From an uncultured Paracoccaceae bacterium (GTDB lineage Bacteria; Pseudomonadota; Alphaproteobacteria; Rhodobacterales; Rhodobacteraceae): a stretch of 64,000 bases of DNA. The notes below the pieces were generated by a model. It was not told where the DNA came from. It did no database searches and saw only the letters and a program-made list of their open reading frames with translations. A program made the translations under genes and the position numbers. This document shows, in pieces, positions 10,823 to 36,965 of this stretch (the stretch's first letter is position 1; every line of letters starts with the position of its first letter). The stretch lies in NCBI GenBank assembly GCA_947497065.1, contig CANMEQ010000004.1, positions 248,001 through 312,000 on the forward strand, given 5' to 3'.

Positions 10823-10823
10823 G

Positions 10824-13899: not shown

Positions 13900-14235
13900 A
13901 TGCGCCCGATGCCCGGCGAAATGAGACATTTGTGTGAACTTGTCTAAAAGTCGTCCCAATGTGCGACACACGCAATGCGTGTTTTTGATTTAGTTTCTTT
14001 GAAAACAAGTGATTTGTGGCGTTTCTGGCGCGCGCATTTGGCCGCAATTGTTTGAAATTCGGGAATCATTGCGGTCACAAAATCATCCAAATTCGTTCTC
14101 AAATTTGACCTGACTGGACGGTTAATTCTTGTTCAACGGATCAACGACAATTCGAAATTAATTATTGTTAATTTAACGACTTGGCAAGAAATCCGAAACA
14201 ATTTGGCTACTACTCAGCGGGCATTGGAGCGTCAC
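13900..14235 (+). promoter_or_regulatory. 336-base AT-rich intergenic region upstream of the EPS priming transferase
   Basis: No gene is apparent. The region contains a palindrome ACACGC-AAT-GCGTGT (13968-13982) followed by TTTTGATTT, which may end the phosphatase transcript or act as an operator. TTAA-N7-TCAA (14122-14136) and TTAA-N6-TTAA-T-TTAAC (14158-14177) resemble, but do not exactly match, the CtrA box TTAA-N7-TTAA. The size and low GC suggest that this is the main promoter region of the downstream gene. Confidence 0.45.
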
Positions 14236-15963: not shown

Positions 15964-16917
15964 TTAGTAGCTTTTGAGCCATTCGCGGCGTGCGGCCCAA
16001 ATGTCTGCCCATTTTTGAGCGGCGTCTTTTTTGCGACCTGTTGCGCGAGATAGGGCGGCGAGACCGAGGGCGCGGCTGCCAGCCCAAAAGAGCAACGTGG
16101 CCCGTCCGAAGGGGACCTGCCATGCGGGCCAATGGTCTTGCATCAGGGTCATCCGTGCTTTTGCGCTGAGGGTGTATTTACGGGCCACGGTTTTGGAGGC
16201 CGCCCCGACGAGGTGCATGATTTCGGCGTTTGGTGTGATCATGGGGGTGTAGCCTTTGGCGCGGGCGCGCAGGCACAGGTCGGCTTCTTCGCCGTACATG
16301 AAATAGCGCAGATCGAAGCCGCCCAAGTCTTCCCACAGGCTGCGGCGGATCATCAAAAAACAACCGACGACGATGTCGACTTCGCGGATGCTGTCGCGTT
16401 GCCAGCCGCCGATGCCTTCTGGGTTGAAGACAGTGGTGGTTTTGAAAATGGAAGACAGGCCTGTGGCCTTACAAAAGGCGGACCAGGGTGTGATTTGCTG
16501 CCAACAGGATGCGACGTTGAGTGAGCCGTCGGGGAATGTGGTGCGACCGCCTGTGATGCCTGCCGATGGGTTGGATTTTGAAAACGACAGAAGGTTGTCG
16601 ACTGCGCCAGCGTGACATTCTGTGTCCGGGTTGAGCAGCAAGAGCCATTCGGTTGTGGCGGCGGCCGCGACGACGTTGTTGGCTTTGGCGAAGCCGAGGT
16701 TTTCATCTGATGCGATGACCTCGACCTGCGGAAAGGCTTGGGCGATTGCTTCGGCTGAGCCATCTGCGGAGGCATTATCGTACACGACTGTGCGGAACCG
16801 TGTTTTTTGGGTGGTCGCGTAGAGGGTTTCGATGGCCTTTAGGGTGAGGTCGCGCGTGTTGTAGCTAACGATGATGACGGTCAGCTCTGCATCGGTCATG
16901 GGGGTGGGGTCAGACAT
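15964..16917 (-). CDS. Family 2 glycosyltransferase
   Basis: A 317-residue GT-A enzyme. VIIVSYNTRDL starts the nucleotide-binding fold, VVYDNASADGS follows, DENLGFAKANN is the signature of the rhamnosyltransferase-like GT2 subgroup, and LLNPDTE holds the metal-binding acidic motif. MYGEEADLCLRARAKGY is the usual catalytic ED region. No transmembrane helix is obvious apart from a weak hydrophobic stretch near the C-terminus. The start at 16917 gives an eight-base overlap with the upstream acyltransferase. It probably adds one sugar to the EPS repeat. Confidence 0.92.
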   Translation of the reverse strand: MSDPTPMTDAELTVIIVSYNTRDLTLKAIETLYATTQKTRFRTVVYDNASADGSAEAIAQAFPQVEVIASDENLGFAKANNVVAAAATTEWLLLLNPDTECHAGAVDNLLSFSKSNPSAGITGGRTTFPDGSLNVASCWQQITPWSAFCKATGLSSIFKTTTVFNPEGIGGWQRDSIREVDIVVGCFLMIRRSLWEDLGGFDLRYFMYGEEADLCLRARAKGYTPMITPNAEIMHLVGAASKTVARKYTLSAKARMTLMQDHWPAWQVPFGRATLLFWAGSRALGLAALSRATGRKKDAAQKWADIWAARREWLKSY

Positions 16918-17971
16918 GTGTGTGTTCAGCTTTCGCGCGGCGCAGGGATGGTTCGAGGGTGCGCCCATAGGCGATGAGGGGTGCTTCGATCCAGCGCCAT
17001 GATAGGGCGGCTGCGACCCAAGTGAGCGCCAGGGTGAGGACCATCAAAAAGTAGGGTTGCAAGGGCAGGCCTGCTGCATTGAACAGCACGTCGAGCCCGA
17101 AGAGTGTGAAGTAGTGGAACAGGTACAAAAAGTAAGCCAGCCGCCCAAAGGAGGCGAGGATGCGGGTGGGTCTGGATTTGAAATCTGGCAGGTAGAGGTA
17201 TATTGCGCAGATCGCGAATGAGGTGGTCGCAGCGATACCGGGGTAGAGCACCACGTGAAACAGGGACGGCCAGACATTGGCGATACCAACACAGAGGGCG
17301 GTTGTAAGCGCCAGCAGGACCAGCGCCGTGGTGCTCTGCGCGCGGCGGACTGCGATGGCGGTGAGGGCCCCGATGATGACGGAATCGAGGCGGGCCGGTG
17401 GATAGCTGTAGACCAAGTTGGGGGCTGTGCCTTGAGACAGGAGAACGACCTTAACCGCCAGTGAAATGGCGGCGATAAAGAGCAGGGCCCACGTGATGTT
17501 GCGTTTGATCCAAAGGAAGGCAAAGCCACATAGGATGTAAGCGAATTCTTCGACCGAGAGGGACCATGTGATTGTGAAAGGGACGGCGTCTTTTCCATCG
17601 ATTAAGATCATCCAGCCGGTCAGGAACAGAGCGGTGATCCATGCGCGTTCGACGCCGGGGTCTGTTTGGGTGAGCTCTGCGGCTGTAAAATAGAGGGCGA
17701 TGGCGAGAAAATAGATCGGAATGATCCGAAAGACGCGACGTGTGAAGAAGACCTTGAGGTCGGGCCACGTGTTGCGCTGCACCAGATACAAGGTGATCAG
17801 AAAGCCGGAGAGAGGGAAGAAAATATCGACCCCTAGAAACCCAAAGCGCGCGAACCATTGGCCCAGTGGGTCGAGTTGAGATGGGTCGAAGTGGACGCCG
17901 ACGTGGTAGCCAATGACGAGAAAGATCGCCAGCGCGCGAATGACGTCGAGCAGTTCATAACGTTCGCGCAT
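16910..17971 (-). CDS. Membrane acyltransferase family 3 (OafA/ExoZ type)
   Basis: A 353-residue inner-membrane protein with about ten helices. It has the family N-terminus LLDVIRALAIFLVIGYHVG, which contains the R-A-x10-H pattern for acyl transfer, and FGFLGVDIFFPLSGFLI. Members O-acetylate or otherwise acylate exported sugars using cytoplasmic acyl-CoA. The gene overlaps its neighbours on both sides (8 and 17 bases), so it belongs to the polymerase-acyltransferase-glycosyltransferase operon and most likely decorates this EPS. Confidence 0.92.
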   Translation of the reverse strand: MRERYELLDVIRALAIFLVIGYHVGVHFDPSQLDPLGQWFARFGFLGVDIFFPLSGFLITLYLVQRNTWPDLKVFFTRRVFRIIPIYFLAIALYFTAAELTQTDPGVERAWITALFLTGWMILIDGKDAVPFTITWSLSVEEFAYILCGFAFLWIKRNITWALLFIAAISLAVKVVLLSQGTAPNLVYSYPPARLDSVIIGALTAIAVRRAQSTTALVLLALTTALCVGIANVWPSLFHVVLYPGIAATTSFAICAIYLYLPDFKSRPTRILASFGRLAYFLYLFHYFTLFGLDVLFNAAGLPLQPYFLMVLTLALTWVAAALSWRWIEAPLIAYGRTLEPSLRRAKAEHTHV

Positions 17972-19376
17972 ATTGGGGCTTTCTTAGGTCGGTCTGTTCT
18001 GTGGTGGCGGATGCGGGGGCATCTTGGGGTGTTTTACCCGCTGGGAAACGGGTGAACACCATTTCGGTTGAGCGGTGTGTTGTAGGCGTGGGGATGTGCC
18101 CTTGGTCCATGTCCTCTTTTGGGATGTATCCAAAGAACACACCAGACCCCATGAGGAAAAACACCAGCGACGACATTTCTCCCCAGACGGCAACGGTGGC
18201 CAGGGTGAGGATCAGGCCGCTCATGGAGATCATCCAGGCACGGCGGGTGTCTTGGAGCAGTTGGCTGTGCGAGAAATCCTGCCGCGAGGCTTTGATCATC
18301 GGGTAGGCGAAGGCGCTGGCGAGGAAAACGAAGGCGGGGATGCCGTAGACCAGTGCGGTGAGCAGCCAGTAATTGTCGAGGCTGCCGGTCATCCAAGGGG
18401 GCAGGCCCCAATCGTTATATCCGATGCCCCAGACGGGTGTTTTGCCGATTTGATCCATCCCGAAATCAAGAAGAACCATGCGCACGTTTGCTGTGGAGGC
18501 GTTGAACGCGAGGCGGGAGGCGATTGCGTAATAGGCGGGACGGTCAGACAGAATGTCGAGCACGATGTAGGACAGCACGCCGATGATGATCAGGGCGGGC
18601 CAGTGGTAGGGCACCGAACGAAACAGCCGCCAATACAGCAGCAACATGGCCTGTGCGATGACCGCGAGAAACGGGCCGGAGGAGACGGATGTGAAGCAGG
18701 CAACGCCGATGAAAAAGCCAAGCAGGAGCCTTTTGTGGGCGCTCCAGAATGTGCGAAAGCCGGTCAGGACCATTGCGAACCCGAGGCTGGTAAACAGGCC
18801 CCAATGAATGGGGTGATCGAAGACAACCTGCGCGCGGTCCAGTCCGAACCTGCGTTCGTAGTTTACATCGATCCGGCTGAAAATTCCGGGCAGTTTTTCG
18901 ATGAGGCGCGGGATTGGGGCTTGGGTGCTGATGGATTCGAAAATGGCCAGAGGTGTGAGGACCAGAATACAGATTGCGAGGAATTTATAGAGCCGCACGA
19001 AGTCGCTGGCGCTGCGAATGTAGCAGCGGGCGGTGAGGTAGCCGCCCAGGAAGAGTGCTGCGTTGGAGCCTACAAATGTCACCAGTGCTGCTGGGTTGTT
19101 GCGTGCGATGGAAAGCGCGATCCAGATTAAAAACAGGAAGACGCAGGCGTCTACTTTGCGAAACCCACCGAGGCGGCCCATTGCGAGGTTGGCCAGCAGA
19201 TAAGGGACTAAGAGGAGGTAGGCAAAACGGGCCGTTGTCATGAACAAGGGGCCCAGGTTGAACAAGACGGGAATGAGCAAAGCCAATATCGAAAGCTTCG
19301 CAATCCGAAGGTCGTGGGTGGTATCGATATGGGCTGTGGTCAGTTCGGTCGACTGAGCCGATAGGGTGCGGTTCAT
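17955..19376 (-). CDS. O-antigen ligase/polymerase-like membrane protein (probable EPS polymerase, Wzy role)
   Basis: A 473-residue protein with about eleven hydrophobic helices and a large periplasmic loop between roughly residues 270 and 330 (NASTANVRMVLLDFGMDQIGKTPVWGIGYNDW). The position and the arginine-bearing pattern match Wzy/WaaL proteins. The G-x-G-x(N)-x(W) motif is typical of that loop. The C-terminal 60 residues are polar. The assignment rests on topology and on being the only polymerase candidate in a locus that also has flippase, chain-length and export genes. Confidence 0.82.
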   Translation of the reverse strand: MNRTLSAQSTELTTAHIDTTHDLRIAKLSILALLIPVLFNLGPLFMTTARFAYLLLVPYLLANLAMGRLGGFRKVDACVFLFLIWIALSIARNNPAALVTFVGSNAALFLGGYLTARCYIRSASDFVRLYKFLAICILVLTPLAIFESISTQAPIPRLIEKLPGIFSRIDVNYERRFGLDRAQVVFDHPIHWGLFTSLGFAMVLTGFRTFWSAHKRLLLGFFIGVACFTSVSSGPFLAVIAQAMLLLYWRLFRSVPYHWPALIIIGVLSYIVLDILSDRPAYYAIASRLAFNASTANVRMVLLDFGMDQIGKTPVWGIGYNDWGLPPWMTGSLDNYWLLTALVYGIPAFVFLASAFAYPMIKASRQDFSHSQLLQDTRRAWMISMSGLILTLATVAVWGEMSSLVFFLMGSGVFFGYIPKEDMDQGHIPTPTTHRSTEMVFTRFPAGKTPQDAPASATTEQTDLRKPQYARTL

Positions 19377-20811: not shown

Positions 20812-22461
20812 ATGAAACTCATTTGGTTCGTCTGTTGCCTGTTGTGGATGCAGGTTGGAATGGTGTCTGCGGACACGTTGTCCATTGACGAGTTTTCCCG
20901 CGATCGAGTGCTGTTTGATGTTGGGGCTGCGTTTGGGCGCGATGCTGCGATGGTTCGTGTCGCGGGCACTGGCGTACCGCAGGCGCAGGTCGACTTGCGT
21001 TTGGTGAACGACCGCACAGGTGGATGGAGCCAATGGCGCGCTGTGGCGCAAGTGAATGCCGATGGGCGCTGGGCGGGTGCGCTCACCCTAAATGCGCGCC
21101 AAGATTGGTTTCGGATCGAGGTCCGGAGCCAAGGAGAGACGGCGGCAACCCGCTACCGTTTTGGGACAGGCGATGTTGTGGCTATTCTCGGCCAATCGGA
21201 GTTTGAGCGTCTTTGGCTGCCTGGCTTTGATGCTTTGGGGGCTGGGTCAAGCCCTGCGGCGCATTCGGATCAGGTTCAGTTTACATTGAGGCGCCCTCAT
21301 ACGGGCGTGACGCATCATTTTACAGATGCAACAGCGACGCAGGCGATGAATGCTTTGGCCACGTTTTGGATTGCCAATGCGCCGCCTGGCCGAAAATTGC
21401 ACGTTGTTGATTTGGCTGAATCCGGCACGACGCGGTTGCAGCTGCAAGATGACGCGGATGATCGGCGCAAGTGGTCGGATTTGGCCGACGTGTTGGCGTT
21501 TCTTGCACGGGATCACGTTCATGTCGGGTTGGTTTTGGAAAGCTGGTTTGCAGGTGAGCGAAGCGTTGGATTGGATTGGGCTGAGGTGTTTATGCCGCTG
21601 TATGCGGGTGTGACACTGCGCGGGCAGGATGTGGTGCGTGGGTCGCGGGGGCGAAATGGCATCTCGTTCGATAACTTTTTGTGGGATGTTTCTGGTGGGG
21701 ACGAGGGCGTTTTTGAGGTTGGCGAGACCGCACTTGGGATTTTTGGACCGCACCGTTTTGACAGTGATGCACGGCTGACGGGGGCTGTCGTGAAGGCGGA
21801 TGGCGAAATGGAATATGGGTTACTTGCGATTGAGCGGTCCCGGGCCGGTGTTGCGGCGTTTCGGCAGGCCGCGCCGATGCAGGATATTTTTGTGGATGTC
21901 GTGCTGCCCCAGCCGCTGGATTATGCGAATGGTTTCGTGGACACCGCGACGGGGGCTTTTATCGACAGTTCGCATCCGTCGTACGTGACGGCGGATGGGC
22001 AGCAGCGGCTCGCCAAACATACGGCCAATGCGGCGTTGGTGGCTTTGGGGCATCAGCGGTACGACATTCCTACGTTCGATCAGATCAGCTGGCGTAGAGG
22101 GGGGATTGAGGTTTCTAGCAGTGCGGGACCGATTACCACGGCGCGCCGGGTGCGGGGGCTGCCCCCGTTGGGTGATGCGTTGCCCCATTGGACAGATGTG
22201 TTGGGGTTTGAGGTAAACGGCCGTGCGATTGAGCGCGCGGAGATCACCCGACACGGCGCTGTCATGCTGTATCCCGCGCCGGACACTGTGTTTAAACGTG
22301 GAGATGTGGTGTCGTTCGGGAAGGGCGGCGCAGGCGGATTTATGCAGCCGGTTCAAGACTGGTTGGCGGCGGCCTATTTGAATTATCCAATCGTTGATGT
22401 TGGGTTGGTGGGACTGGAAGGTGTTGCGGTGACCCCCGGTCTGAGTGTGACGTTAAGGTGA
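20812..22461 (+). CDS. Secreted SGNH/SASA-like putative polysaccharide esterase, paralogue of the GTA spike fibre
   Basis: A 549-residue protein with a Sec signal peptide (about 1-20, ending VSA). A beta-rich region comes first, then an SGNH-like domain with GQSE (Ser129) as block I and D-S-S-H-P (Asp385, His388) as block V. The region after the hydrolase (HWTDVLGFEVNG to NYPIVDVGL) matches the equivalent part of the protein at 26976 nearly segment by segment. Known SASA-type enzymes remove O-acetyl groups from sugars, so an EPS de-acetylase is plausible. The start at 20812 is chosen for the signal peptide; the frame is open upstream. Confidence 0.75.
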   Translation: MKLIWFVCCLLWMQVGMVSADTLSIDEFSRDRVLFDVGAAFGRDAAMVRVAGTGVPQAQVDLRLVNDRTGGWSQWRAVAQVNADGRWAGALTLNARQDWFRIEVRSQGETAATRYRFGTGDVVAILGQSEFERLWLPGFDALGAGSSPAAHSDQVQFTLRRPHTGVTHHFTDATATQAMNALATFWIANAPPGRKLHVVDLAESGTTRLQLQDDADDRRKWSDLADVLAFLARDHVHVGLVLESWFAGERSVGLDWAEVFMPLYAGVTLRGQDVVRGSRGRNGISFDNFLWDVSGGDEGVFEVGETALGIFGPHRFDSDARLTGAVVKADGEMEYGLLAIERSRAGVAAFRQAAPMQDIFVDVVLPQPLDYANGFVDTATGAFIDSSHPSYVTADGQQRLAKHTANAALVALGHQRYDIPTFDQISWRRGGIEVSSSAGPITTARRVRGLPPLGDALPHWTDVLGFEVNGRAIERAEITRHGAVMLYPAPDTVFKRGDVVSFGKGGAGGFMQPVQDWLAAAYLNYPIVDVGLVGLEGVAVTPGLSVTLR

Positions 22462-25854: not shown

Positions 25855-25857
25855 TTG

Positions 25858-26571
25858 ATGCGCAAGCGTTTGGCGCTTGGGGTTTTGGTGGCCTGTGGGC
25901 TGATGATTTGGGGCCTGCAGCCGCGGGAATTGGCCGTTCAGGATCGTGGTGTTGATCTGGCGTTTATTGCGGATATTCCCGTGGCCCGCCCGCTGCGGAT
26001 CGCGGTTTTGGGCACGAGTTTGTCGCACGGTGAGATGTGGCCGGATGCTTTGGCGGAACGGTTGGCTGGGTGTTTGGAACGCCCTGTGCAGGTGGAGGTT
26101 ATTGCGCGGCCGGGGGCGAGTGTTGTTTGGGGGACGCAGACTATTGGCGCCGTTGCACTGACGGATCCGGACATTGTTTTGGTGGAATTTGCGACGAATG
26201 ATGCCGATGTGTTTGACGGTGTTTCTTTGCGTCGGTCGCGGCAATTGTATGCTGATCTGAGTGAGGGGCTCGGCGCGGCTGTGCCTGAGGCAGCAGTGAT
26301 TTTGATGACGATGAACCCAGTGGTTGGCATAAGGCGGATGCAACGCCCGTGGTTGCGGGCGCAAAACCGACAGTACAAAGATTTTGCGGTGACCTATGAC
26401 GTTGGGCTGATCGACCTGGCGCCACGGTGGGATGCATTTGAGGGACAGGTTTGGACCAAAGATGGTCTGCATCCTGAGCCTGAGTTTGCGGCGCAATTGA
26501 TTGGCCCTGCTATCGCCGATTTTATCCTTCGCGAGAGCGGAGCGCCGCAGTGTTCAAGCCCAAGCTTGTGA
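25858..26571 (+). CDS. SGNH/GDSL-type hydrolase
   Basis: A 237-residue protein with an N-terminal hydrophobic signal or anchor (about 5-20), then an SGNH hydrolase domain. Block I is LGTSLSHGE (Ser54), block II Gly is in ARPGAS, block III is FATND (Asn114) and block V is DGLHP (Asp202, His205). The complete catalytic set suggests an active periplasmic esterase. It follows the acetyltransferase at 25345 with a four-base gap, and is less similar to the 20812 and 26976 proteins than those are to each other. The ATG at 25858 directly follows an in-frame TTG. Confidence 0.85.
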   Translation: MRKRLALGVLVACGLMIWGLQPRELAVQDRGVDLAFIADIPVARPLRIAVLGTSLSHGEMWPDALAERLAGCLERPVQVEVIARPGASVVWGTQTIGAVALTDPDIVLVEFATNDADVFDGVSLRRSRQLYADLSEGLGAAVPEAAVILMTMNPVVGIRRMQRPWLRAQNRQYKDFAVTYDVGLIDLAPRWDAFEGQVWTKDGLHPEPEFAAQLIGPAIADFILRESGAPQCSSPSL

Positions 26572-26715: not shown

Positions 26716-26976
26716 ATGATCGACCCTTTTGAAAACTATGCCGCTTCGCTTGAAGGCCCTGCGGAACATCATTTTGCTATTGCGCCCAGTGATACGACCG
26801 ATCTGGTTCGACGCCCGCGCGCGATCCGGATTGGGGGTGAGGGTATTGTTGTGCTGCGAGATGTGGCGGGCGTGGATGTGGCTTATGCCGTCGCAGCCGG
26901 AGAGATTCTGCCGATCAGATGTGTGCGTGTTCTCGCGACAGGAACCACGGCGACGAACATCACAGGTTGGTCCTGA
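26716..26976 (+). CDS. GTA head-spike base protein homologue (Rcc01079/GhsA family)
   Basis: An 86-residue protein starting MIDPFENYAASLEGPAEHH, with the small beta-barrel pattern PSDTTDLVRRPRAIRIGG and AAGEILPIRCVRVLATGTT. This matches the spike-base family named after Rhodobacter capsulatus Rcc01079, whose product anchors the capsid head spike of the gene transfer agent. AAAGGA precedes the ATG; a GTG at 26695 is an alternative. The stop overlaps the next start as TGATG, so the two proteins are probably made in coupled amounts. The match is from memory of the family pattern; no search was run. Confidence 0.82.
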   Translation: MIDPFENYAASLEGPAEHHFAIAPSDTTDLVRRPRAIRIGGEGIVVLRDVAGVDVAYAVAAGEILPIRCVRVLATGTTATNITGWS

Positions 26977-28997
26977 TGCTGGGGGGCGGGTTTGGCCTGT
27001 CTGTTTCGCGGGTGCTATCGGGGGCGCGGCTGGACGGGGCGGTGCGCCCCGATTTGCCTGATGTGCCCGTCGTGCCTGATGTCCCCCCTTTTGTGACAGC
27101 GATTTGGGGGCAATCCGAACATCAGCATATTCTGCTGGAATTTGACGATGTTTTAGCAAAGGAGGAATTGGTTGATCAGGATCGAGTCACGTTTTGGTGG
27201 CACGACAGGACAACGGGTGGCGCGGGTGGTGTGCATTCGGTCACGTTGAATGACACCACGCGGGCGACGGCAACGGTGACGGCGGCGATGGTTGCGATGG
27301 GCAACACATTCATGCGCCAAATTCCGGATCGCGACATTAAAATCATCATGCATACGCAATCTGGCACGACGCCAGAAGAGATTATGGATGACAGCTATGT
27401 CGCTACGAACTTGGATGGTGCGCCAGCCCGTCGGTGGCAGGATGATTGGGCGCTGAATGCGGCGGCAACCGCCGATGGCTATGTTGTGGATCATCCATGG
27501 CATTCATGGTTTGCGGCGCCTGGGTCCTGGGGGACTGACTATGGGCAGAATATGTTCGCGTTTATCAAAGGGCGTGACCACCTCACGGGTGCTGATTTGG
27601 TGTATTCCTCGGGGTCGCCGCTGGTCATGAATGGTATTTCGGTGTCGCGCACGTTGCGTGACCTTTACCCGCATGAGCCAAGCTGGATTGCTACATCTGG
27701 GGCACATGTGTCTCTTCCGACGGAAGATTTAAGCAATGCGATTACCTTGTCGTCGGGCGGGGGGCAGGCGTCTTTGTTGAACAAGCAGACGTCGACCGAG
27801 AGTTGGCGCGAGGTGATCCGCAACCCGGCCTTGGCGACGCATTTCAGCGATGAGGTTTTTGCGTTGAATGGCTATGCGAATGGTGCTGATGACGGGGGTG
27901 TCTGGACCGATCAATCTCACCCGACAGGGCTGATTGATGCAGGTATCAACCGGATGGCACGGCAGATGGCCCATGCGATTATGCGGGGTGCGCAGGTTAC
28001 CGCGTTTGATGTGCCTATGATCACACATGCCGAGTGGCAGCCGGATGGATCGTATATGGAGTTCTGGTCTGATGCTGGAGCTATCACGACCTACCGGGGT
28101 GGCACCGGTGGTGCGGGCAATACGTTTGATCATTGGACTGATGTTGTGGGGGTGGAGATTGACGGAGTGCCGGCCCATCGTGCGGAAATTCAACCCAATG
28201 GTCGGGTGCGAGTTTATCCGAACACGGGCGTGTTTACGAACACCAGCTTGATCCAGTTCGGGCGCGGTGGTGCGTCTGGGTGGGTGCGCCATGACGAGGA
28301 TGCCTATGCCGGTTTGTGGGATGACTATCCGATTGTGGATGTGGGGCTGCCTGATTTGGCGGGTGTGCCTCTTGCGACGTTGCCTGATCCGGTCATGTTG
28401 GAAAGTACGATCGTTGGCGTGACGTCTTTCCAGACCAGCAATGCGGGGCCGCAATTTGTCGATACGAGCAACGTGCCAGCCAACACCAGCGCGTTGACGT
28501 TTCGTGCCGTGCTGGTGATGGATGCCGACACGGCATCGAATACGCCAGATGTTTTGACGATTGGTGGGTTGCAGTTGCGTTTGGCGACGATTGTTTCGCA
28601 GGGGCGGTTGAGGCTTACGATCAAAGACAATGCGAACACGACGTTGCTGAACAATGTGGGGACAGCGATGAATGTGTTTCCCGCGTCTGTGCAGCATGAG
28701 GTGCTGATGAAAGTGGATTTGGCCGCAGGGCGTGCATTGATCTACCTCAACGGTGAGGCTGTTCCGGTGTTGGATCAGACCTTCACGGCGAGTGATCCGC
28801 GTTGGTCCACGTCGCGCACGATTGCGATGTTAGGGGGTGTTCAATTTAAGGGGGCGGTTGAGAGCTTGCAGTTGTGGCTGAATGAGGCGTCTTTGGACAA
28901 TGTCGTGCCGTCTACCGTGCCGTATAAGGTGGTTTCTGGCACTGCCGCTGCGGTAAACGCGGATCCTTGGAAAACGGGTTCTGATGCTGTGGCGTAA
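26976..28997 (+). CDS. GTA head-spike fibre-like protein (Rcc01080/GhsB type) with SGNH/SASA-like and LamG-like domains
   Basis: A 673-residue protein with no signal peptide. The short N-terminal segment (MLGGGFGLSVSRVLSG) could attach to the base. A Pro-rich linker follows (about 25-38), then an SGNH-like domain with GQSE (Ser47) and D-Q-S-H-P (Asp312, His315). A jelly-roll-like module (HWTDVVGVEIDG to YPIVDVGL) is shared with the 20812 protein, and a C-terminal LamG-like beta-sandwich (about 490-650) follows. In R. capsulatus the fibre contacts the cell capsule. Here it may bind and perhaps de-esterify the EPS encoded around it. Confidence 0.75.
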   Translation: MLGGGFGLSVSRVLSGARLDGAVRPDLPDVPVVPDVPPFVTAIWGQSEHQHILLEFDDVLAKEELVDQDRVTFWWHDRTTGGAGGVHSVTLNDTTRATATVTAAMVAMGNTFMRQIPDRDIKIIMHTQSGTTPEEIMDDSYVATNLDGAPARRWQDDWALNAAATADGYVVDHPWHSWFAAPGSWGTDYGQNMFAFIKGRDHLTGADLVYSSGSPLVMNGISVSRTLRDLYPHEPSWIATSGAHVSLPTEDLSNAITLSSGGGQASLLNKQTSTESWREVIRNPALATHFSDEVFALNGYANGADDGGVWTDQSHPTGLIDAGINRMARQMAHAIMRGAQVTAFDVPMITHAEWQPDGSYMEFWSDAGAITTYRGGTGGAGNTFDHWTDVVGVEIDGVPAHRAEIQPNGRVRVYPNTGVFTNTSLIQFGRGGASGWVRHDEDAYAGLWDDYPIVDVGLPDLAGVPLATLPDPVMLESTIVGVTSFQTSNAGPQFVDTSNVPANTSALTFRAVLVMDADTASNTPDVLTIGGLQLRLATIVSQGRLRLTIKDNANTTLLNNVGTAMNVFPASVQHEVLMKVDLAAGRALIYLNGEAVPVLDQTFTASDPRWSTSRTIAMLGGVQFKGAVESLQLWLNEASLDNVVPSTVPYKVVSGTAAAVNADPWKTGSDAVA

Positions 28998-29047: not shown

Positions 29048-29146
29048 GTTCGCGTTGATAAATAGGTGGAATTGTGATGGCCCAGGTGGGGGTGTCTCCG
29101 GTATCAAACGCAAGAGACGTGCAGTTGACCGAGGAGTTTGGGGCCA

Positions 29147-29716
29147 ATGGAAGATAAAGTCGCTTACAAAACTGAAAAGACCCGTGGGCAGCGATTTGTG
29201 CGGCTTTTGAAATCTGTCGTGAACCCGAAAGCCTGGGCGCATCTGATTAAGATCGTGAATTATTACAACACGACCCATGTGGTTGAATTGGCGAAGGCGC
29301 AAAAGGGAACCGGTGGCGGGATCAGCCCGACTGCGAGTTTTGCCAATGGTCACAATTTGATTTTGGGAGACAGGGTTCGGATTGGATCTGGGTCTTGTCT
29401 TTGGGCCGGAAACGGGAATGCAAAGATTGTTTTGGGCGATGATGTAATGTTGGCGCCGAATGTGATGATTACGGCCGCCAATTACCGGTTTAACGATGGC
29501 GGGCCCGTTCATGCGCAAGCGATGAATGAGGCCGATATCAACATTGGGCGGGATGTTTGGATTGGCTATGGCGCGGTCATTCTACCTGGTGCGCAAATTG
29601 GTGAGGGCGCGATTATTGGCGCGCGTGCCGTTGTTCGGGGGACAGTAGCCCCCTACGCCATCGTTGCCGATGCGCCGTCGGTTCAGGTTGCTGAACGGCA
29701 GCACCCCAAACCTTAA
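29147..29716 (+). CDS. Left-handed beta-helix O-acyltransferase
   Basis: A 189-residue hexapeptide-repeat enzyme. The coil region runs from NLILGDRVRIGSGSCL through IVLGDDVMLAPNVMIT. It ends INIGRDVWIGYGAVILPGAQIGEGAIIGARAVV, with a His-bearing loop in between (NDGGPVHAQ) where acetyltransferases place their catalytic His. This is the wcaF/vat-like layout. The ATG at 29147 has GAGGAG about ten bases upstream; a TTG at 29138 is in frame. It is monocistronic and convergent with the GT4 gene. It likely O-acetylates an EPS sugar or lipid-linked intermediate. Confidence 0.87.
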   Translation: MEDKVAYKTEKTRGQRFVRLLKSVVNPKAWAHLIKIVNYYNTTHVVELAKAQKGTGGGISPTASFANGHNLILGDRVRIGSGSCLWAGNGNAKIVLGDDVMLAPNVMITAANYRFNDGGPVHAQAMNEADINIGRDVWIGYGAVILPGAQIGEGAIIGARAVVRGTVAPYAIVADAPSVQVAERQHPKP

Positions 29717-29728
29717 CGGCGCACCGAT

Positions 29729-30973
29729 TTATTTTTCCATCACACGTTGATAGGCGGCGATCAGGGTGTCGACCTGATAGGCCCAGCTGAGTTCTGTTTC
29801 GATGCGCGTGCGGCCGATGCGGCCCATCTCTGCGCAGCGTTCAGGATCGTCGAGGAGTTCCAAGATTTTGGCGGCCATGTCACGGGTGTCGTTTGAGGCG
29901 GCATAGAGCGATGCCTCAGCCGCGGAATAACGCCCTTCGGTGACATCGAATTGCACGATGGGTTTGGAAAACGCCATGTATTCCAAGATTTTGTTCATCG
30001 TTGATTTGTCGTTCATCGGGTTTACGCGATCTGGGTTGACGCACACATCCGACGAGGACAGCACCGAGAACAGATCGGCGTCTGGAGCGCGACCTGTGAA
30101 GGTCACGTGGTCGGACAAGCCCATGTCTTTGGCCATCTCTTTGAGGGAGGCTAAGGCTGGACCGCCGCCGACCAAAACCAGCTGCACATCGCGGCCTTCG
30201 TCGAACACGATATGGTGCAGGCTTTCCAAGAGAAGGTCGATGCCTTCTTGGTCGCCCATCACGCCGACATAGCCCAGCATGTGGTCACGGCCATTGCGCC
30301 ATTTTGTGTCTGGGTCCACCAGTTGGAGATTGTCGAGATTGGGGCCCGAGCGCACGACGAACACGTCTTCAGATGCGACGTTGCCGCGTGTCATGGCGAT
30401 TTCGCGGTAGGATTTATTGGTTGAAATCACGACCTGTGCGGCGCGGAACGTCCAACGTTCGAACAAGACCATCAATTTCCAAAAGAGGCCACGTTTGTTG
30501 AATTTGGCTTCATACAGTTCTGGATTGATGTCGTGGTGGTCAAAGATAAATTTCACGCCTCGGAACCATTTGAAGGGCAAGGCGACGAGGAACATCAGGT
30601 CGGGTGGGTTGCAGGCTTGGATCGTATCGAACCCGCCTTTGCGCCAGATTTTCAAAGCCAAACGGAATTCGTGCCAAAGTGCTGCTGAATATTCCAGCAG
30701 GTAACCTGAGGCGCCTTTGGCGTCGAGCGGTAGGTTGTGGCGGTAGATGTGGATGCCATCGATTTCTTCGTATGGCGCTTCGAACCCTTTGCCTGTGGGG
30801 CAGATCACCGAGACCTCGGCGCCTGCGGCGTGCAGGGTTGTGCTTTCATGCCAGACACGGCGGTCGAAGGGCAGGGGCAGGTTTTCGACCAGGATAAGAA
30901 TGCGGCGCCCTGCGAGAGGGCGTTCGGCGCGCAGGCGGTCGAAAACGTCAGAGACTTCTACTTTGGTGGTCAT
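29729..30973 (-). CDS. Family 4 glycosyltransferase
   Basis: A 414-residue GT-B enzyme. The N-terminal Rossmann half begins ILILVENLPLPFDRRVWHE and contains IFDHHDINPELYEAK. The C-terminal half has GYVGVMGDQEGIDLLLES, LVLVGGGPALASLKEMA and the catalytic E-x7-E-like NPMNDKSTMNKILEYMAFSKPIVQFD. The spelling is close to WbuB/WcaL-type transferases often paired with UDP-sugar dehydrogenases. It starts two bases after the stop of the dehydrogenase gene. It probably transfers a uronate or hexose to the growing repeat. Confidence 0.92.
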   Translation of the reverse strand: MTTKVEVSDVFDRLRAERPLAGRRILILVENLPLPFDRRVWHESTTLHAAGAEVSVICPTGKGFEAPYEEIDGIHIYRHNLPLDAKGASGYLLEYSAALWHEFRLALKIWRKGGFDTIQACNPPDLMFLVALPFKWFRGVKFIFDHHDINPELYEAKFNKRGLFWKLMVLFERWTFRAAQVVISTNKSYREIAMTRGNVASEDVFVVRSGPNLDNLQLVDPDTKWRNGRDHMLGYVGVMGDQEGIDLLLESLHHIVFDEGRDVQLVLVGGGPALASLKEMAKDMGLSDHVTFTGRAPDADLFSVLSSSDVCVNPDRVNPMNDKSTMNKILEYMAFSKPIVQFDVTEGRYSAAEASLYAASNDTRDMAAKILELLDDPERCAEMGRIGRTRIETELSWAYQVDTLIAAYQRVMEK

Positions 30974-30975: not shown

Positions 30976-32268
30976 TTATTCTGCCGCTGTTGATGTGATG
31001 TCGGACAACCGATCGAGATAGACGATTTCGGTATCGGCTGGCAGATCGAGCAATTTGACCGTTGCGTTGGTTGCGATCACGCGGTCGTAGCTGCCGCCTT
31101 CGGCTGTGTCTTTGTCGACGAGCAATTTTTGAAGTTTTGGAAGTTGTGAATAGGCATACCCAAGGTTCGCACCCACCAGTTTTCCAGCATCGACCGAGGG
31201 GTCAAAAATATCGACGTCGTAGCCAGCGGAGAGCATTTTACGGGCGAGATCCACGTTCGGGCTTTCGCGCAGATCGTCGGTGTCTGCTTTGAAGGCGACC
31301 CCGGTCAGAAGGACGCGCGCGTTTGGTGCGAGGTCTTTGACGGCGTGGACAAAGAGGCGATGTTTGTGTGCTTCGTTCGAGTGCAAAAGACTGTCGATTA
31401 GCTGGGTGCTGGTGCCGATATCGCCTGCGATGTGCTGCAAGGCGCGCACGTCTTTTGGCAGGCAGGACCCGCCGAACGCGCCGCCCGGACGCAAGTAATA
31501 AGGGGAGACGTTGAGCTTGGTGTCCGATACAAAAATTTCGTGAATTTCAGCGGGCGGAATACCAAGATCGAGACAAATCCGGCCCAATTCGTTCGCGTAG
31601 GACACTTTCACCGCATGCCATGTGTTATCGGCAAATTTGGTGAATTCTGCGGTCCGGTAGCTGGCGTGAAATACGGGAGCTTCGATTTGGGCGTGCAGGG
31701 CATCCATGTTTTTCGACGGTTGTTTGTCGTGGGTGCCGACAACGATTTTCGGTGGGGCAAAGTAATCGTCAACCGCAGATCCTTCGCGCAGGAATTCGGG
31801 GTTATACACGATTTCAATTTTGGTCTGCCAGTCGTCGCCAAGTTGGGCTTCTAGAATGGGGATCAGCAGGTCTTCGACGGTGCCGGGCCGGAATGTAGAG
31901 CGGTAGGCGATGGTGAGGATTTTATCGCGGCCTTCGGGGAGGGCTTCGGCGATTTGACGTGTCACATCGACGATGTAGCGCATGTTGTGCGAGCCGTCTG
32001 GGCCGGAGGGCGTGCCCACACAAACGATGGCGACATCGGCGTTCGCCAAATGGTCGCCAATGGCGGTATCGACTTTCAAGTTACCCGAGGCCAATGCGGC
32101 GTTCATCATGCCTTCGATTTTGGGTTCAATAATTGGGGGGATACCGGCCCGGATTTCCGCAACTTTTTTCGAGCTGACGTCAATGCCGGTCACTGTGTGA
32201 CCCTCGCTCGCGATGCAGCATGCGGCGGTAAACCCCACATAGCCGATGCCCAAAATGACGATGTCCAT
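30976..32268 (-). CDS. AlgD-type nucleotide-sugar 6-dehydrogenase
   Basis: A 430-residue NAD-dependent enzyme that oxidises a nucleotide sugar at C6 to a uronic acid. The NAD-binding site is ILGIGYVGFTAACC with Asp30 after the second strand. NPEFLREGSAVDD contributes the catalytic Glu, and FGGSCLPKDVRAL carries the nucleophile Cys269. The LPKDVRAL spelling, not FPKDTLAL, is that of GDP-mannose dehydrogenase (AlgD) rather than UDP-glucose dehydrogenase, so GDP-mannuronate is the likely product. This would make the polymer acidic and fits the two beta-helix proteins nearby. GAGGGA lies upstream. Confidence 0.9.
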   Translation of the reverse strand: MDIVILGIGYVGFTAACCIASEGHTVTGIDVSSKKVAEIRAGIPPIIEPKIEGMMNAALASGNLKVDTAIGDHLANADVAIVCVGTPSGPDGSHNMRYIVDVTRQIAEALPEGRDKILTIAYRSTFRPGTVEDLLIPILEAQLGDDWQTKIEIVYNPEFLREGSAVDDYFAPPKIVVGTHDKQPSKNMDALHAQIEAPVFHASYRTAEFTKFADNTWHAVKVSYANELGRICLDLGIPPAEIHEIFVSDTKLNVSPYYLRPGGAFGGSCLPKDVRALQHIAGDIGTSTQLIDSLLHSNEAHKHRLFVHAVKDLAPNARVLLTGVAFKADTDDLRESPNVDLARKMLSAGYDVDIFDPSVDAGKLVGANLGYAYSQLPKLQKLLVDKDTAEGGSYDRVIATNATVKLLDLPADTEIVYLDRLSDITSTAAE

Positions 32269-32455: not shown

Positions 32456-33334
32456 TTAGCGCCCGGCAGAGCGGCCTGTTGCGGATTGGCTGATCATCCA
32501 GAGCATACGGCTAAAACGCAGGCGGGTTAGGGTCGAAATACCGGCCCACCGTTCCGCAGAAGTGTTGAGGGACGGGTGGCGCAGTATTTTGAGACTGTGT
32601 GGCAGAATGCTAGGGAGCATCAACGCCCCTTTCATCGCCCACCGAAGGCGTGCGCGTGGTGTGGTGCCGTTTAATGTGAAGCCTTCGTGGGTCATGCGGC
32701 GCCATTTTTTGCGCAAGGCGGGCCAGTCTGAACGTGATGGGTGAGAGACATGCAGGTCGGCGCAATAGGCCAGTGTGTAGCCAGACGCGGTTGCGCGACG
32801 GCACCAATCGACGTCTTCGGATTTGCTGCCATCAAAGGGCCCGGTTGCAGCAAACACATCGCGGAAGGTCAAAAGGTTTGCGGTCACCGAGAAGCCTTTG
32901 GTGTTGACGTAGGATTCATTGTCGAAGGCAAAAACGGTTTCAAAAATTTCCGCACCGCTGCGGGGGGGCGGCGTTTCGTCAAAGACGGAAACTGCGCCAC
33001 CGATGACATCTGCGTTTGTGCGATGGTCGGTTTGCGCCAAGGCGGTGCTGACCCAATTTTCGGCCGGCACACAATCGGCATCGATGAAGAACAGGCGAGG
33101 GCTGGTTGTGTTTGCGACGCCGCTGTTGCGGGCGGGGGCTGCGCCGGATTGCGGCTCTGTGAGGAGACGCACATCGGGGTAGGTGGTGCGAATGGGGTTG
33201 AGATCTTCGGTTGATGCATTGTCGACAACGATCAGTTCCACACGGTCGCTGAGCTGCGGTTGCAAAGCAGAAAGACACCGCATGAGGCGGGTAACATCAT
33301 TGTAGTGGGGGATGATTATTGCGGCGTCAGGCAT
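32456..33334 (-). CDS. Family 2 glycosyltransferase
   Basis: A 292-residue GT-A enzyme: IIIPHYNDVTRLMRCL, LIVVDNASTEDL, GAAPARNSG and FFIDADCVP (metal-binding D-x-D). The later GPFDGSKSEDVDWCRRATASGY gives the catalytic ED motif. A weakly hydrophobic basic C-terminal region could associate with the membrane. It lies 32 bases downstream of the exosortase on the same strand, so it is probably in the same operon. Sugar specificity is unknown. Confidence 0.9.
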   Translation of the reverse strand: MPDAAIIIPHYNDVTRLMRCLSALQPQLSDRVELIVVDNASTEDLNPIRTTYPDVRLLTEPQSGAAPARNSGVANTTSPRLFFIDADCVPAENWVSTALAQTDHRTNADVIGGAVSVFDETPPPRSGAEIFETVFAFDNESYVNTKGFSVTANLLTFRDVFAATGPFDGSKSEDVDWCRRATASGYTLAYCADLHVSHPSRSDWPALRKKWRRMTHEGFTLNGTTPRARLRWAMKGALMLPSILPHSLKILRHPSLNTSAERWAGISTLTRLRFSRMLWMISQSATGRSAGR

Positions 33335-33366: not shown

Positions 33367-34965
33367 TTATTCTGGGATGTAGTCTGGCAATTGCTGCAAG
33401 GCCTGCGCCATGAAGGTTTGCAAGCGGGCGTCTGCGTCGGCAGGGTCTTCGTCCTGACCAATCTGGGTGACAAACCGAACAAGCGCGCCGTCGGTCCGGC
33501 CCAGTGTGATGCCGTCGCGTAGAACGCTGAGCTTGGCGGCCACATCATTCGTCATGCGGGTGCCGCGCTGTTCAAACCAGTAATACACCAGCTGCTGTTC
33601 GAAGTCTTTTTCGATTATGGCGCGGTTTACGGTGAAGGTTTCGTAGGCTGTGTTGGGGATTGTCACACTTTGTTTGTCGAGTTGAAAAATTTCCCAACCG
33701 CCCGCGGGGAGGCAAACTTCGGGGGAGTGGATGCCTTCGCCTTCTGTTTGGCTTGCGTACCAAGCTGAAAAGAACTGTACGGGGTGTGCGGCTGAAGGCG
33801 CGGTGTAGATGCTGTTGATGTAGTCATTCGCGCCCAGAACCTCTTCGACCTGCTGGTCGAGAACAAAGGTCGTGCCGGTCCAATCCTCTAGCTGGGTAGG
33901 AAATGCAATGAAATCTGTGCGTTGGGGGGGCGGCACGTCGCGCCCTGGTAGGATGACAAAGGCCGTCGCCACGGCAGCTACGAACAGGGTTGCCACCATG
34001 GGACTGGGCGTAAGTTTAATGTGGAGGATGCGTTTGGCGTGATCGCCCAATCCCGCGAAGTCGAAATCGATCACGTCTGACAGCGACCTCGCGCCGCCTG
34101 TGGTGCGTTGGAGAACCAAAGCGGTCAAAAACAGGATCGCGATACAGGCGCCGAAGATGACCCAGCCCTCGAAGAAGTGCAAAAACCCTTCGGCTTGATC
34201 GATGCCGTAGGAATTGACCAAAACGCCGATCACGCCGATCCGAAAGGAATTCATGAGCACGGTGAGCGGGGCGGCCATGATGAACAACGCAACTTTGTGC
34301 CAATAGGGGCCGCGATACAGGATCGCCATCAGGTAGCTGAACGACAAAATCGGAAACAGGTACCGCAGGCCTGAACAGGCCTCGGCCACGAGGAGCTGGT
34401 AGGGGCCAAGGTCGATGATGTTCCCGTCGAGAAAAACAGGAATTCCGGCAAAGCGGATGACCATAACGCCCAATTCCGAGGAAACGCCTTGGAGAAAAAC
34501 GGTCATTTTCCAGTAGACGTATTGGGGGAGGGGCAACATGAAAACCAAGTGAAGAACGGGCAATTGGTGGCGTTTGCCCTCGGCCCATCCCATGCAGAGC
34601 AAAACGAGGCCAGCGACCCAAATGATAAATGCATAGGTCGCGATATCGGGGATGCTGGCGAGGTTTCCCAAAACGGCCATGCCGCTTCCCAGTGCGATCA
34701 CGGCGACGCCGGGCCAACGATTGCAGGGGGTGCCATTTGGCAGGTCGGTCTTGCCGCGCAATTCGCGCAAAAACAGGTAGAGCGAGATCAGCGGAATGAG
34801 CGGGCCATGGCTGTATTCAGGGGTGGTCCAAGCGCGACCAAGGGCGGCAAACCCGATCCAGAACAGGGGCGCAGAGATGACGATCAGCGCGAGAAACCCA
34901 AGTAGGGAGGGGTTTACGAGCAGCCGTTTCGGCAGTGTCGGGGCAGTTTGATCGATGGTGTTCAT
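33367..34965 (-). CDS. xrtD: Exosortase fused to an EpsI domain (XrtD type)
   Basis: A 532-residue protein. The N-terminal part is an eight-helix exosortase with catalytic ACSGLRY (Cys197), NSFRIG (Arg242) and HFFEGW (His263). The C-terminal part (about 325-532) is the EpsI-like domain with VCLPAGGWEI and a YYWFEQRG segment. This fusion and its neighbours fit XrtD, which in Rhodobacteraceae processes proteins with a VPLPA-CTERM tail. No such tail occurs on any product in this window, so its substrates lie elsewhere. The start at 34965 (MNTIDQ) is inferred. Confidence 0.88.
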   Translation of the reverse strand: MNTIDQTAPTLPKRLLVNPSLLGFLALIVISAPLFWIGFAALGRAWTTPEYSHGPLIPLISLYLFLRELRGKTDLPNGTPCNRWPGVAVIALGSGMAVLGNLASIPDIATYAFIIWVAGLVLLCMGWAEGKRHQLPVLHLVFMLPLPQYVYWKMTVFLQGVSSELGVMVIRFAGIPVFLDGNIIDLGPYQLLVAEACSGLRYLFPILSFSYLMAILYRGPYWHKVALFIMAAPLTVLMNSFRIGVIGVLVNSYGIDQAEGFLHFFEGWVIFGACIAILFLTALVLQRTTGGARSLSDVIDFDFAGLGDHAKRILHIKLTPSPMVATLFVAAVATAFVILPGRDVPPPQRTDFIAFPTQLEDWTGTTFVLDQQVEEVLGANDYINSIYTAPSAAHPVQFFSAWYASQTEGEGIHSPEVCLPAGGWEIFQLDKQSVTIPNTAYETFTVNRAIIEKDFEQQLVYYWFEQRGTRMTNDVAAKLSVLRDGITLGRTDGALVRFVTQIGQDEDPADADARLQTFMAQALQQLPDYIPE

Positions 34966-35024
34966 ATTCGAATACTGCCCCTTCTGCTGCGGTCTAACCT
35001 GCTGTGTTACGCGCTGTGCGCCGC

Positions 35025-36311
35025 TTATCGGCCTGCCACCCAATCGCGCCCGATGCTAAAGAACAACCCTTGCGATGAAGCGTTGTCTAGCCCGGTTTCA
35101 CGCCGTGTGGTGTGATCCGCGCCGACGGACACGCGCCAGTCTTGGGTCAACTGGCGGTTCAGCTGCACCTTGGCGGAAAGCTCTGATTCAGTTGTATCTG
35201 TGCTGAGGTTTTCTTGTTCCACGAAGGAGGCATTCAGCGACAGGGATGTGGCTGAGGTGAGGTCAAAATTCGCGCCGACAATTGCAGCGGTGTTCAAAAC
35301 CACATCATCATCATTTGACTCTGTTACTGCGGAGTTGAACTGGATTGAATAGCTGGACGTGCTTGTCGGTTGCACCTGATACTGCAGCCCGCCTGTTAGC
35401 CGGGTGTCGAAGCCATCGGACAGTGTCGCACCTACATCGAAGCGAAGGCTTGACCGTGCGGTCGGCGTCGCGGTGAGGCCGCCGGAGATGGTAAACCGGT
35501 CATTGTTGCTTTCAGGGGCGGAGTAAAACAGCTGACCACGTACCGATAGGTTGTCAGACCGTACAGCGGTGGCCCCGAGGCGGAGGTTCAATGTAGAGGA
35601 TTGATTTGTTGTGTCCGTCTCGCGCTGGGTTTGGCTGATCATCGTGTCGATCTGGATCGTCGGCGAGATATCGAGGTGTGCGTTGAGAGCGGCGGTGACG
35701 GATGTGCCGTCGACCAGATCTAGATTGCTGACGTCATCGTAGTTCAGCTTTGCGCCGGACACTGTTGCGCCCCATCCGAAGGGGCCGTTTTCGTTGGTCT
35801 GAAAGCCAAGCCGATACTGAAAGGCTTCGCGCGTGCCTGTGCCGGATGTGTCGCCGAAGTCATCGGATAATGTGGTGTGTTCATCGTCGATCAGGTCGCT
35901 TGAGTCGATAAAACTGATGTCGTCGCGACTGTAGGCGGCTGTCAGGAATGTTCGCACGTTGGGCGCAAGGTTGGTGTAGGAAAACCCGAGCGTTTCATCT
36001 CCAAAGGTTAGGTCTTCCGAGCCAGAGGTGTCATCGCTGAACACATAGCGGAGTGTGCCGCTGGCGCTCAATTCAATCTCCGACCGGCGGGTTTCCGATT
36101 TTAGAACATACCCCAAATCGGTGCTGGTGAATGTGCGGCTGTCGGAATTGCCGGGTGTTTGGGATGGATTTTGCGTGGAACGCAGGCTTTGATCAACCGA
36201 GAAGGTTGACGTCAGGCCGGTTGGGGTTTGCGCCAAAGACGGCAAAGCAACACTGGCAAAGATTGCCAGCGCTGATGCTCCGCCGATAGCCGATTTTTTC
36301 TTGGTATTCAT
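35025..36311 (-). CDS. EPS-associated outer-membrane beta-barrel protein
   Basis: A 428-residue protein with a Sec signal peptide (about 1-27, ALPSLAQ) and then alternating amphipathic beta strands rich in T, S, D and N. It ends in a strand with an aromatic near the C-terminus (QGLFFSIGRDWVAGR). It looks like the outer-membrane beta-barrel proteins (BBP2 type) found beside exosortase/EPS genes. A role in passing polymer or sorted proteins across the outer membrane is likely but inferred. It lies 30 bases after the export protein gene. Confidence 0.8.
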   Translation of the reverse strand: MNTKKKSAIGGASALAIFASVALPSLAQTPTGLTSTFSVDQSLRSTQNPSQTPGNSDSRTFTSTDLGYVLKSETRRSEIELSASGTLRYVFSDDTSGSEDLTFGDETLGFSYTNLAPNVRTFLTAAYSRDDISFIDSSDLIDDEHTTLSDDFGDTSGTGTREAFQYRLGFQTNENGPFGWGATVSGAKLNYDDVSNLDLVDGTSVTAALNAHLDISPTIQIDTMISQTQRETDTTNQSSTLNLRLGATAVRSDNLSVRGQLFYSAPESNNDRFTISGGLTATPTARSSLRFDVGATLSDGFDTRLTGGLQYQVQPTSTSSYSIQFNSAVTESNDDDVVLNTAAIVGANFDLTSATSLSLNASFVEQENLSTDTTESELSAKVQLNRQLTQDWRVSVGADHTTRRETGLDNASSQGLFFSIGRDWVAGR

Positions 36312-36341: not shown

Positions 36342-36965
36342 TTATTCAAAAAGGCGACGTGCGGGGACAACAATGACGTCACCGTCCACCATCTGAGACA
36401 GGCCAACATCGCTTTGACCATCCAGAATTTGCTGGAAGTTCACGCTGTACACAGTGTCGCGCCCGTTAACGGCACGGCGCAATTGCACACGTTTCAAAGC
36501 GGCAAAATCGGTCATGCCACCAGCAAGCGAGAGTGCCTGAAGCAGTGTAATCGTCTCTTCGGTTTGAACCAAACCGGGGTTGTTCACTTCGCCGATGACA
36601 TAGATGTTCGTCACGATCGGGTCAGGCTCCGGTGCGGGTGCCGCTGGGACGACTTCGCGCAGCTCGATCAGGGACACCAACACCGTGGGTCGTGTGGCAA
36701 AGTTGCTTTCAAGACGGTTCGTCAGCACACGTTGTGCTTCGGTGATGGAGAGGCCCGCCACGCGGACGTTTCCCGCCAAGGGCATAGAAACACGACCATC
36801 AGGGGCCACAAGAACATCGCGGTCGATGGAAGAATCTTCTAGCACTTCAACGCGCAAAAGATCGCCAGAGCGAATTTTGAACGTTTGGGCAGAGGCGGAT
36901 GTTGCAAACAGGCTCGCAGCCAATACTAATAATACTACTAAAAAGCGTATATTTTTCATGATCAT
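36342..36965 (-). CDS. Wza-like polysaccharide export protein
   Basis: A 207-residue periplasmic or outer-membrane auxiliary protein with a signal peptide (about 1-26, ATSASAQ). A Poly_export domain follows (IRSGDLLRVEVLEDSSIDRDVLVAPDG, PLAGNVRVAGLS), then a SLBB domain (IYVIGEVNNPGLVQTEETITLLQALSLAGG). There is no lipobox, so it differs from classical Wza; short non-acylated forms are usual in exosortase-type EPS loci. An Ala/Pro linker (PAAPAPEPDP) separates the domains. The in-frame ATG at 36959 is an equally good start. Confidence 0.9.
   Translation of the reverse strand: MIMKNIRFLVVLLVLAASLFATSASAQTFKIRSGDLLRVEVLEDSSIDRDVLVAPDGRVSMPLAGNVRVAGLSITEAQRVLTNRLESNFATRPTVLVSLIELREVVPAAPAPEPDPIVTNIYVIGEVNNPGLVQTEETITLLQALSLAGGMTDFAALKRVQLRRAVNGRDTVYSVNFQQILDGQSDVGLSQMVDGDVIVVPARRLFE

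Follow-up and report, generated by a model that had tools for sequence, protein, structure and literature searches.

A head-spike gene pair of gene transfer agent type in an exopolysaccharide locus, and the association of spike and surface-polysaccharide genes in Rhodobacterales

The DNA analysed here, referred to as the window, is a 64,000-nucleotide stretch of contig CANMEQ010000004.1 (positions 248,001 to 312,000) from an uncultured Paracoccaceae bacterium of the order Rhodobacterales. Within a locus for a surface exopolysaccharide (EPS), the window carries two overlapping genes that we interpret as the base and fibre of the head spike of a gene transfer agent (GTA), together with a third gene related to the body of the fibre. 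Their features, with positions in the window, are as follows (RcGTA, the GTA of Rhodobacter capsulatus; ORF, open reading frame; pLDDT, predicted local distance difference test).

26716..26976, + strand: GTA head-spike base, 86 amino acids, Rcc01079 family by sequence (NF048002, PDB 6tb9_E3, phrog_12296)
26976..28997, + strand: candidate GTA head-spike fibre, 673 amino acids, coupled to the base gene by TGATG; predicted model with a pLDDT of 86.8
26976..27005, + strand: putative N-terminal docking plug of the fibre, residues 1-10 (MLGGGFGLSV), alternating hydrophobic/small pattern as in the RcGTA fibre
27090..28394, + strand: fibre region like SGNH carbohydrate acetylesterases, residues 39-473, with Ser47, Asp312 and His315
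28419..28994, + strand: LamG/pentraxin-like beta-sandwich of the fibre, residues 482-673
20812..22461, + strand: paralogue of the fibre body that lacks the plug and the LamG part and whose start, judged by eye, resembles a signal peptide; a longer mechanical ORF starts at 20713

Profile and structure-database searches confirmed, at the level of sequence, that the 86-amino-acid protein is a GTA head-spike base of the Rcc01079 family. It matched NF048002 ('spike base protein, RCAP_Rcc01079 family') with 110.4 bits against a curated cut-off of 28 (E=3.8e-32), phrog_12296 with E=5.5e-28 and, over residues 3-85, PDB 6tb9_E3 ('Head spike base Rcc01079') with E=1.2e-27 and 51 of 83 alignment columns identical (61%); the closest phage match, from RcapNL, reached 53% identity. 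Glu13 of the base aligns with Glu12 of 6tb9, the reported capsid-contact residue of the RcGTA base, so that this position is kept. A single copy of the family was found in the source genome, and its product would be expected to form jelly-roll pentamers on the vertices of the GTA capsid.

The stop codon of the base gene and the start codon of the 673-residue ORF overlap by one base. By residues 2-10, the RcGTA fibre reportedly docks on the base through a plug of alternating hydrophobic and small residues, and comparison of LGGGFGLSV in the window fibre with IALGLGLGL in the RcGTA fibre showed four of five hydrophobic positions to be kept (the predicted model has a pLDDT below 50 over residues 1-33). 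For the full-length fibre, neither Pfam nor NCBIfam gave a family at E 0.01, nor PHROGs a match at E 1, and the only match listed among PDB sequences (E=0.46) was not credible. A match to rcc01080, the RcGTA fibre gene, has been reported in phage RcapMu (PMC8601537); we took RcapMu58, the gene after the RcapMu base, to be that match, and in the comparison, which is limited to this stand-in, the window fibre body had no detectable similarity to it. The GTA-fibre assignment therefore rests on the coupled position and the N-terminal plug. The preliminary description of the window had already recognised the Rcc01079 pattern in the 86-residue protein and its TGATG coupling to a 'spike-fibre-like' ORF; the family, the coordinates and the overlap were all borne out, and the fibre designation held for position and plug but not for a likeness of the body to the RcapMu58 stand-in.

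Of 292 genomes sampled from the order, 120 contained the base family, and one locus per genome was taken from 100 of these (best-scoring first, window included, mostly 20 kb). A coupled ORF of at least 200 amino acids lay 3' of the base in 79 loci, and 77 fibres were kept; the coupled 'fibres' of loci L038 and L050 were judged spurious and dropped before counting, the likely fibre of L050 lying elsewhere in its locus. Strict plug-like alternation was found at a fixed register in 61 of the 77 fibres and at any of three registers in 71, compared with 46 and 114, respectively, of 417 ORFs detected by the local EPS profiles described below (mechanical starts). With one fibre per genus (39 genera), the observed contrast was reached in 0 of 2000 trials of within-sequence shuffling. 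These register tests took the place of a strict computer pattern for the plug, which had overlooked many evident cases. The plug is thus common to many coupled fibres though their bodies fall into 20 BLAST families (likewise 20 with five fibres added), and many members of the window fibre family in other genomes, which were left uncounted, also begin in a plug-like manner. A Pfam scan of 64 of the 77 fibres (the 13 left out belong mostly to genus g4) detected SASA carbohydrate esterase in five, LamG in four and GDSL in three, with single matches to CBM6, CBM5/12 and a beta-helix.

The predicted fold of the window fibre over residues 25-473 resembles that of the CE20/SIAE SGNH carbohydrate acetylesterases 7kmm, 9ega and 8f9p, the fold matches listed for this region having 7-15% sequence identity. 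Ser47, Asp312 and His315, which follow the pattern of a catalytic Ser and Asp-x-x-His, were invariant in 33 of 33 aligned relatives and would, on this conservation, act as the catalytic triad. The fibre body is accordingly modelled, as a prediction, as a CE20/SIAE-like SGNH carbohydrate esterase followed by a LamG domain; it shares with these enzymes the fold and the conserved Ser, Asp and His, and differs by the added docking plug and C-terminal LamG domain and in that its activity is only predicted. Membership of the Pfam families SASA or GDSL was not found for the window fibre (no family at E 0.01). Foldseek matches of the C-terminal domain, which include many concanavalin-like proteins, toxin binding domains among them, were set aside as reflecting a common fold.

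The pair is enclosed by a surface-polysaccharide locus of the exosortase/Wzy type at approximately 14.2-45.3 kb of the window (~31 kb), which comprises the following genes.

14203..14925, + strand: sugar-phosphate transferase, left end of the locus (PF02397, E=2.4e-58)
15964..16968, - strand: GT2 glycosyltransferase (PF00535, E=9.4e-19)
16910..17971, - strand: membrane acyltransferase (PF01757, E=7.8e-25)
17955..19376, - strand: Wzy/O-antigen-ligase-type polymerase (PF04932, E=1.4e-8)
25855..26571, + strand: GDSL lipase/acylhydrolase (PF13472, E=3.9e-15), ending 144 bases 5' of the base gene
29138..29716, + strand: hexapeptide-repeat acyltransferase (NCBIfam, best 4.9e-17; the 25 matches listed all below curated cut-offs)
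29729..30973, - strand: GT4 glycosyltransferase (PF13692, E=1.3e-24)
30976..32268, - strand: UDP-sugar dehydrogenase (TIGR03026, E=1.8e-113)
32456..33334, - strand: GT2 glycosyltransferase (PF00535, E=1.9e-20)
33367..35043, - strand: exosortase XrtD (TIGR04152, 671 bits, cut-off 400)
36342..36965, - strand: polysaccharide export protein (PF02563, E=9.1e-18)
40720..42291, + strand: Wzz-like chain-length determinant (PF02706, E=3.4e-5, just under the cut-off)
43146..43916, + strand: sulfotransferase (PF03567, E=5.5e-12)
43930..45339, + strand: polysaccharide flippase (PF13440, E=2.3e-35)

These Pfam and NCBIfam scans of the flanks agree with the earlier placement of the pair amid EPS acyltransferases, glycosyltransferases and putative esterases. 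The accompanying statement that the R. capsulatus spike genes lie off the GTA cluster and beside a capsule gene is matched by PMC10218006, which reports GhsA/GhsB (Rcc01079/Rcc01080) outside the main cluster and beside capsule genes rcc01081-01086. GC content did not mark the EPS locus as foreign. Two beta-helix proteins, at 19395-20696 and 22483-25152 (the larger, with PKD and LamG domains), flank the fibre-body paralogue and are possible EPS lyases or adhesins. A tRNA-Lys gene (12989-13064), a possible integration site, lies just outside the left end of the locus.

A gene-neighbourhood survey, called for in the preliminary description, revealed the same arrangement in most of the loci sampled from the order. 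EPS or capsular polysaccharide (CPS) genes were detected by local profiles seeded from the EPS genes of the window, and 40 control regions were drawn from 40 of the same genomes, on the same contigs and ~60-200 kb away. In 83 of the 100 loci the base had at least one EPS/CPS gene no more than 5 kb away, compared with 2 of 40 controls when this distance was taken from their centre, and two or more such genes were found in 59 of 100 loci and 0 of 40 controls (Fisher values for this linkage treat loci as independent and are indicative only). At least one linked locus was found in 42 of 50 genera, and all loci were linked in 35 of the 50; among loci with full 5-kb flanks, the window not counted, 75 of 88 were linked.

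Fibre family and EPS gene content also varied together. With orthologues defined by at least 45% identity, pairs of loci from different genera shared on average 0.91 EPS orthologues when their fibres belonged to the same family and 0.08 when they did not (2233 pairs, 186 of them same-family), and this gap held in four of five strata of base identity. Upon permutation of the labels over 35 genera, the observed value was reached in 0 of 300 permutations in each of 20 representative draws. Within genera, same-fibre pairs shared 75% of their EPS genes (96 pairs; 81% in 18 pairs without the large genus g4), compared with 20% for different-fibre pairs (17 pairs, five genera). These data support the view that the receptor-binding gene and the polysaccharide genes go together beyond the window. 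The preliminary suggestion that spike and polysaccharide form one unit of inheritance was thus upheld by the survey and by the co-variation, whereas its further proposal of a strain-specific co-evolution of DNA exchange was not: co-variation indicates inheritance or replacement as a unit and is by itself no proof of selection for matching or of strain-specific exchange.

The locus itself appears variable among relatives of the source genome. In the same-genus genome G214, the fibre is unrelated and most of the EPS locus differs (identities to the window of 45% for the exosortase, 38% for one sulfotransferase and 23-26% for GT4 and GT2), while G236, from another genus, has a related fibre and, among the loci compared, shares the largest number of EPS orthologues with the window. 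In the window, the EPS locus lies in the ~35 kb that separate dapF from a DNA methylase gene (by Pfam); relatives of these two genes are separated by 5.8 kb in the same-genus genome G095 and by 21 kb in G061, in both of which no spike-base, fibre or exosortase match was found. The distance is 66 kb in G214 and 26 kb in G236, where base and exosortase lie on other contigs. These observations, which for the other genomes consist of gene distances alone, fit an exchangeable island between dapF and the methylase gene. G095 is also without a match to GTA_TIM, the GTA marker protein used below.

The fibre body has relatives of two other kinds. The paralogue at 20812..22461, the only other match to the fibre in the genome, is 30% identical to the window fibre over a 443-column alignment and 34% identical to the fibre of locus L139 over 543 columns, its signal-peptide-like start aligning where the L139 fibre carries the plug. 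The window body is therefore shared with a secreted-looking EPS-locus protein in which such a start takes the position of the plug. A second secreted-looking homologue of the body occurs in L216. Among viruses, the contigs L217 and L218 (139.6 and 15.6 kb; 4875-8066) encode a 1063-amino-acid protein in which the window fibre body recurs in two parts, 72% and 51% identical, that are split by a long insert; in L218, a 99-amino-acid ORF overlaps the start of this protein and a portal gene follows. A 1432-amino-acid protein in L208 (5592-9890) has the fibre body in its C-terminal part and is possibly encoded by a phage; the stretch fetched yielded neither a base nor an EPS gene. Phages RcapNL, Pben1, immuto and P8625 have a small base gene followed by a gene for a plug-bearing variable protein, much as in the window (the plug of RcapMu is weaker). 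The annotation in these five phage records is hypothetical or tail fibre protein for the base genes and hypothetical or tail protein for the genes that follow. The pairs of the first four phages are probably head spikes; they sit among phage genes, whereas the window pair lies in a host polysaccharide locus.

The genome also has genes for a particle that such a spike could decorate. Neither of the two outcomes named as refuting in the preliminary description, a 26716 product without a significant Rcc01079-type match and a genome devoid of a GTA structural cluster, was therefore obtained. A GTA structural cluster on a separate contig, C2, comprises terminase, portal, prohead protease, capsid, connector, tail completion, tail tube, hub and NlpC/P60 genes as well as a GTA_TIM protein (E=9.5e-144). 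Its capsid matched Rcc01687 with E=4e-179, and no other PF05065 capsid gene was found in the genome.

Taken together, we consider it probable (roughly 0.75) that the pair is the head spike of an Rcc01687-type GTA with an exchangeable body, and that spike and EPS genes are replaced as one cassette. By homology with RcGTA, pentamers of the base would be mounted on the capsid vertices, and the first ~10 residues of the fibre (L-G-G-G-F-G-L-S-V) would insert into the pentamer as a plug and carry a flexible body for carbohydrate recognition that can be exchanged. The SGNH esterase and LamG body may bind, and would probably de-O-acylate, the EPS made by the surrounding locus; by engaging this polysaccharide as a receptor on neighbouring kin, it would hold particles near recipient cells. 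Spike genes of the order mostly reside in surface-polysaccharide loci and, with base, fibre and EPS genes replaced together, the receptor-binding module would, we propose, stay matched to the coat of kin.

Several observations weigh against this interpretation. Of the full-flank loci, 13 of 88 have no EPS gene within 5 kb, and 23 of the 100 base loci lack a coupled fibre (21 without an ORF of at least 200 amino acids, plus L038 and L050); six of these 23 have a window-family fibre elsewhere in the locus, one of them broken (L061), and in L148 the sequence stops 140 bases past the base. In the sample, the presence of a base does not follow that of GTA_TIM: matches were found in 116 of 280 genomes with GTA_TIM and in 4 of only 12 without it (one of the four partial), which amounts to no association. 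No word of 6-8 bases exceeded the highest shuffled count in the 160 bases upstream of the base (one sequence per genus, 50 genera; 30 shuffled sets), so that co-regulation at the spike base is unsupported. In the lowest base-identity stratum the one same-family pair shared no EPS gene, and relatedness was controlled by genus and base identity only; the same-fibre species of a genus might just be more closely related to each other, and neither loci nor pairs are independent because related species share whole loci. Finally, the capsule-less R. capsulatus strain 37b4 is reported to have still bound ~45% of tagged fibre (PMC10218006). As regards the uncoupled bases, those of L070, L083, L086, L091, L145 and L147 lie tightly beside polysaccharide genes, neighbours of such bases including a UDP-sugar dehydrogenase or a sugar transferase, and in L061, which has a base gene, the window-family fibre is apparently split into two ORFs (10331-12271).

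The relatedness of the loci bears most directly on the possibility that linkage and co-variation reflect nothing but common descent of whole loci, without a functional match of spike and polysaccharide. Bases are more alike in same-fibre pairs (56.5% vs 37.9% identity), and shared ancestry therefore contributes; moreover, replacement of whole loci would yield an identical pattern. Yet species of one genus with different fibres mostly carry different EPS genes, and because EPS loci that share hardly any close orthologue (0.08 per pair) each carry a base, the association arose or was kept repeatedly, and we regard descent alone as a rather unlikely account, a functional match being the proposed one. 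It is improbable that the pair is a phage or prophage remnant that landed by chance in the EPS locus and does not serve the GTA: base-plug pairs do occur in ordinary phages, a viral contig carries the body at 72% identity and a base match occurs in four genomes lacking GTA_TIM, but besides the pair itself no phage structural family was detected among the window ORFs scanned, no second PF05065 capsid gene was found in the genome, the base is nearer to Rcc01079 than to RcapNL and the EPS linkage recurs in 83 of the 100 loci. We give very little credence to the reading of the 673-residue protein as an ordinary EPS-modifying esterase that merely overlaps the base gene and is no particle fibre. It would account for the EPS-locus paralogue and the esterase-like fold; however, the fibre starts with the docking plug and the paralogue does not, and a plug tends to be shared by the 77 coupled ORFs with their mostly unrelated bodies, as well as by many family members in other genomes.

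Compared with RcGTA GhsA/GhsB, the GTA head spike proposed for the window has the same base family, N-terminal fibre plug and location off the GTA cluster near capsule or EPS genes. It differs in the exosortase type of its EPS locus and in the fibre, which at 673 amino acids with an SGNH esterase and LamG body contrasts with the reported 325 amino acids of Rcc01080 and is without detectable relation to the RcapMu58 stand-in. Binding of tagged fibre to capsulated R. capsulatus cells has been measured (PMC10218006). Another GTA-borne protein acting on polysaccharide, as proposed for the window fibre, is the RcGTA tailspike TspA (Rcc02623), which according to a preprint degrades biofilm polysaccharide and aids transfer (PMC13420450); TspA, a tailspike of the baseplate, keeps its place in one genome module among different Rhodobacterales (PMC13420450), whereas head-spike genes follow the EPS locus. 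Capsule genes beside spike genes were thus already known in R. capsulatus, to which the present analysis adds the order-wide linkage, the plug signature, the co-variation and the esterase-like fibre body; in the titles and abstract beginnings of the papers that our literature searches listed, we found no report of order-wide linkage, fibre-EPS co-variation, an esterase head spike or the plug as a general signature, although earlier papers may contain part of this.

The plug provides a simple signature by which head-spike proteins can be recognised beside base genes whatever their type of body, in GTAs as well as in phages. We tentatively propose, as a reading with a little less than an even chance, that Rhodobacterales head spikes are a greenbeard-like self-recognition module, in which one mobile EPS island encodes both a polysaccharide and the spike that recognises it, by means of a plug placed on a carbohydrate-active body. 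If so, GTA exchange would be channelled to cells with the same coat, and a new coat would bring with it the matching delivery key. The finding touches on the questions of why domesticated GTAs are kept and who receives their DNA: the linkage of spike and coat could steer DNA exchange towards kin, possibly with a benefit, and, if true across the order, a receptor-binding module linked to the locus that makes its receptor would constitute a built-in and directly testable kin filter.
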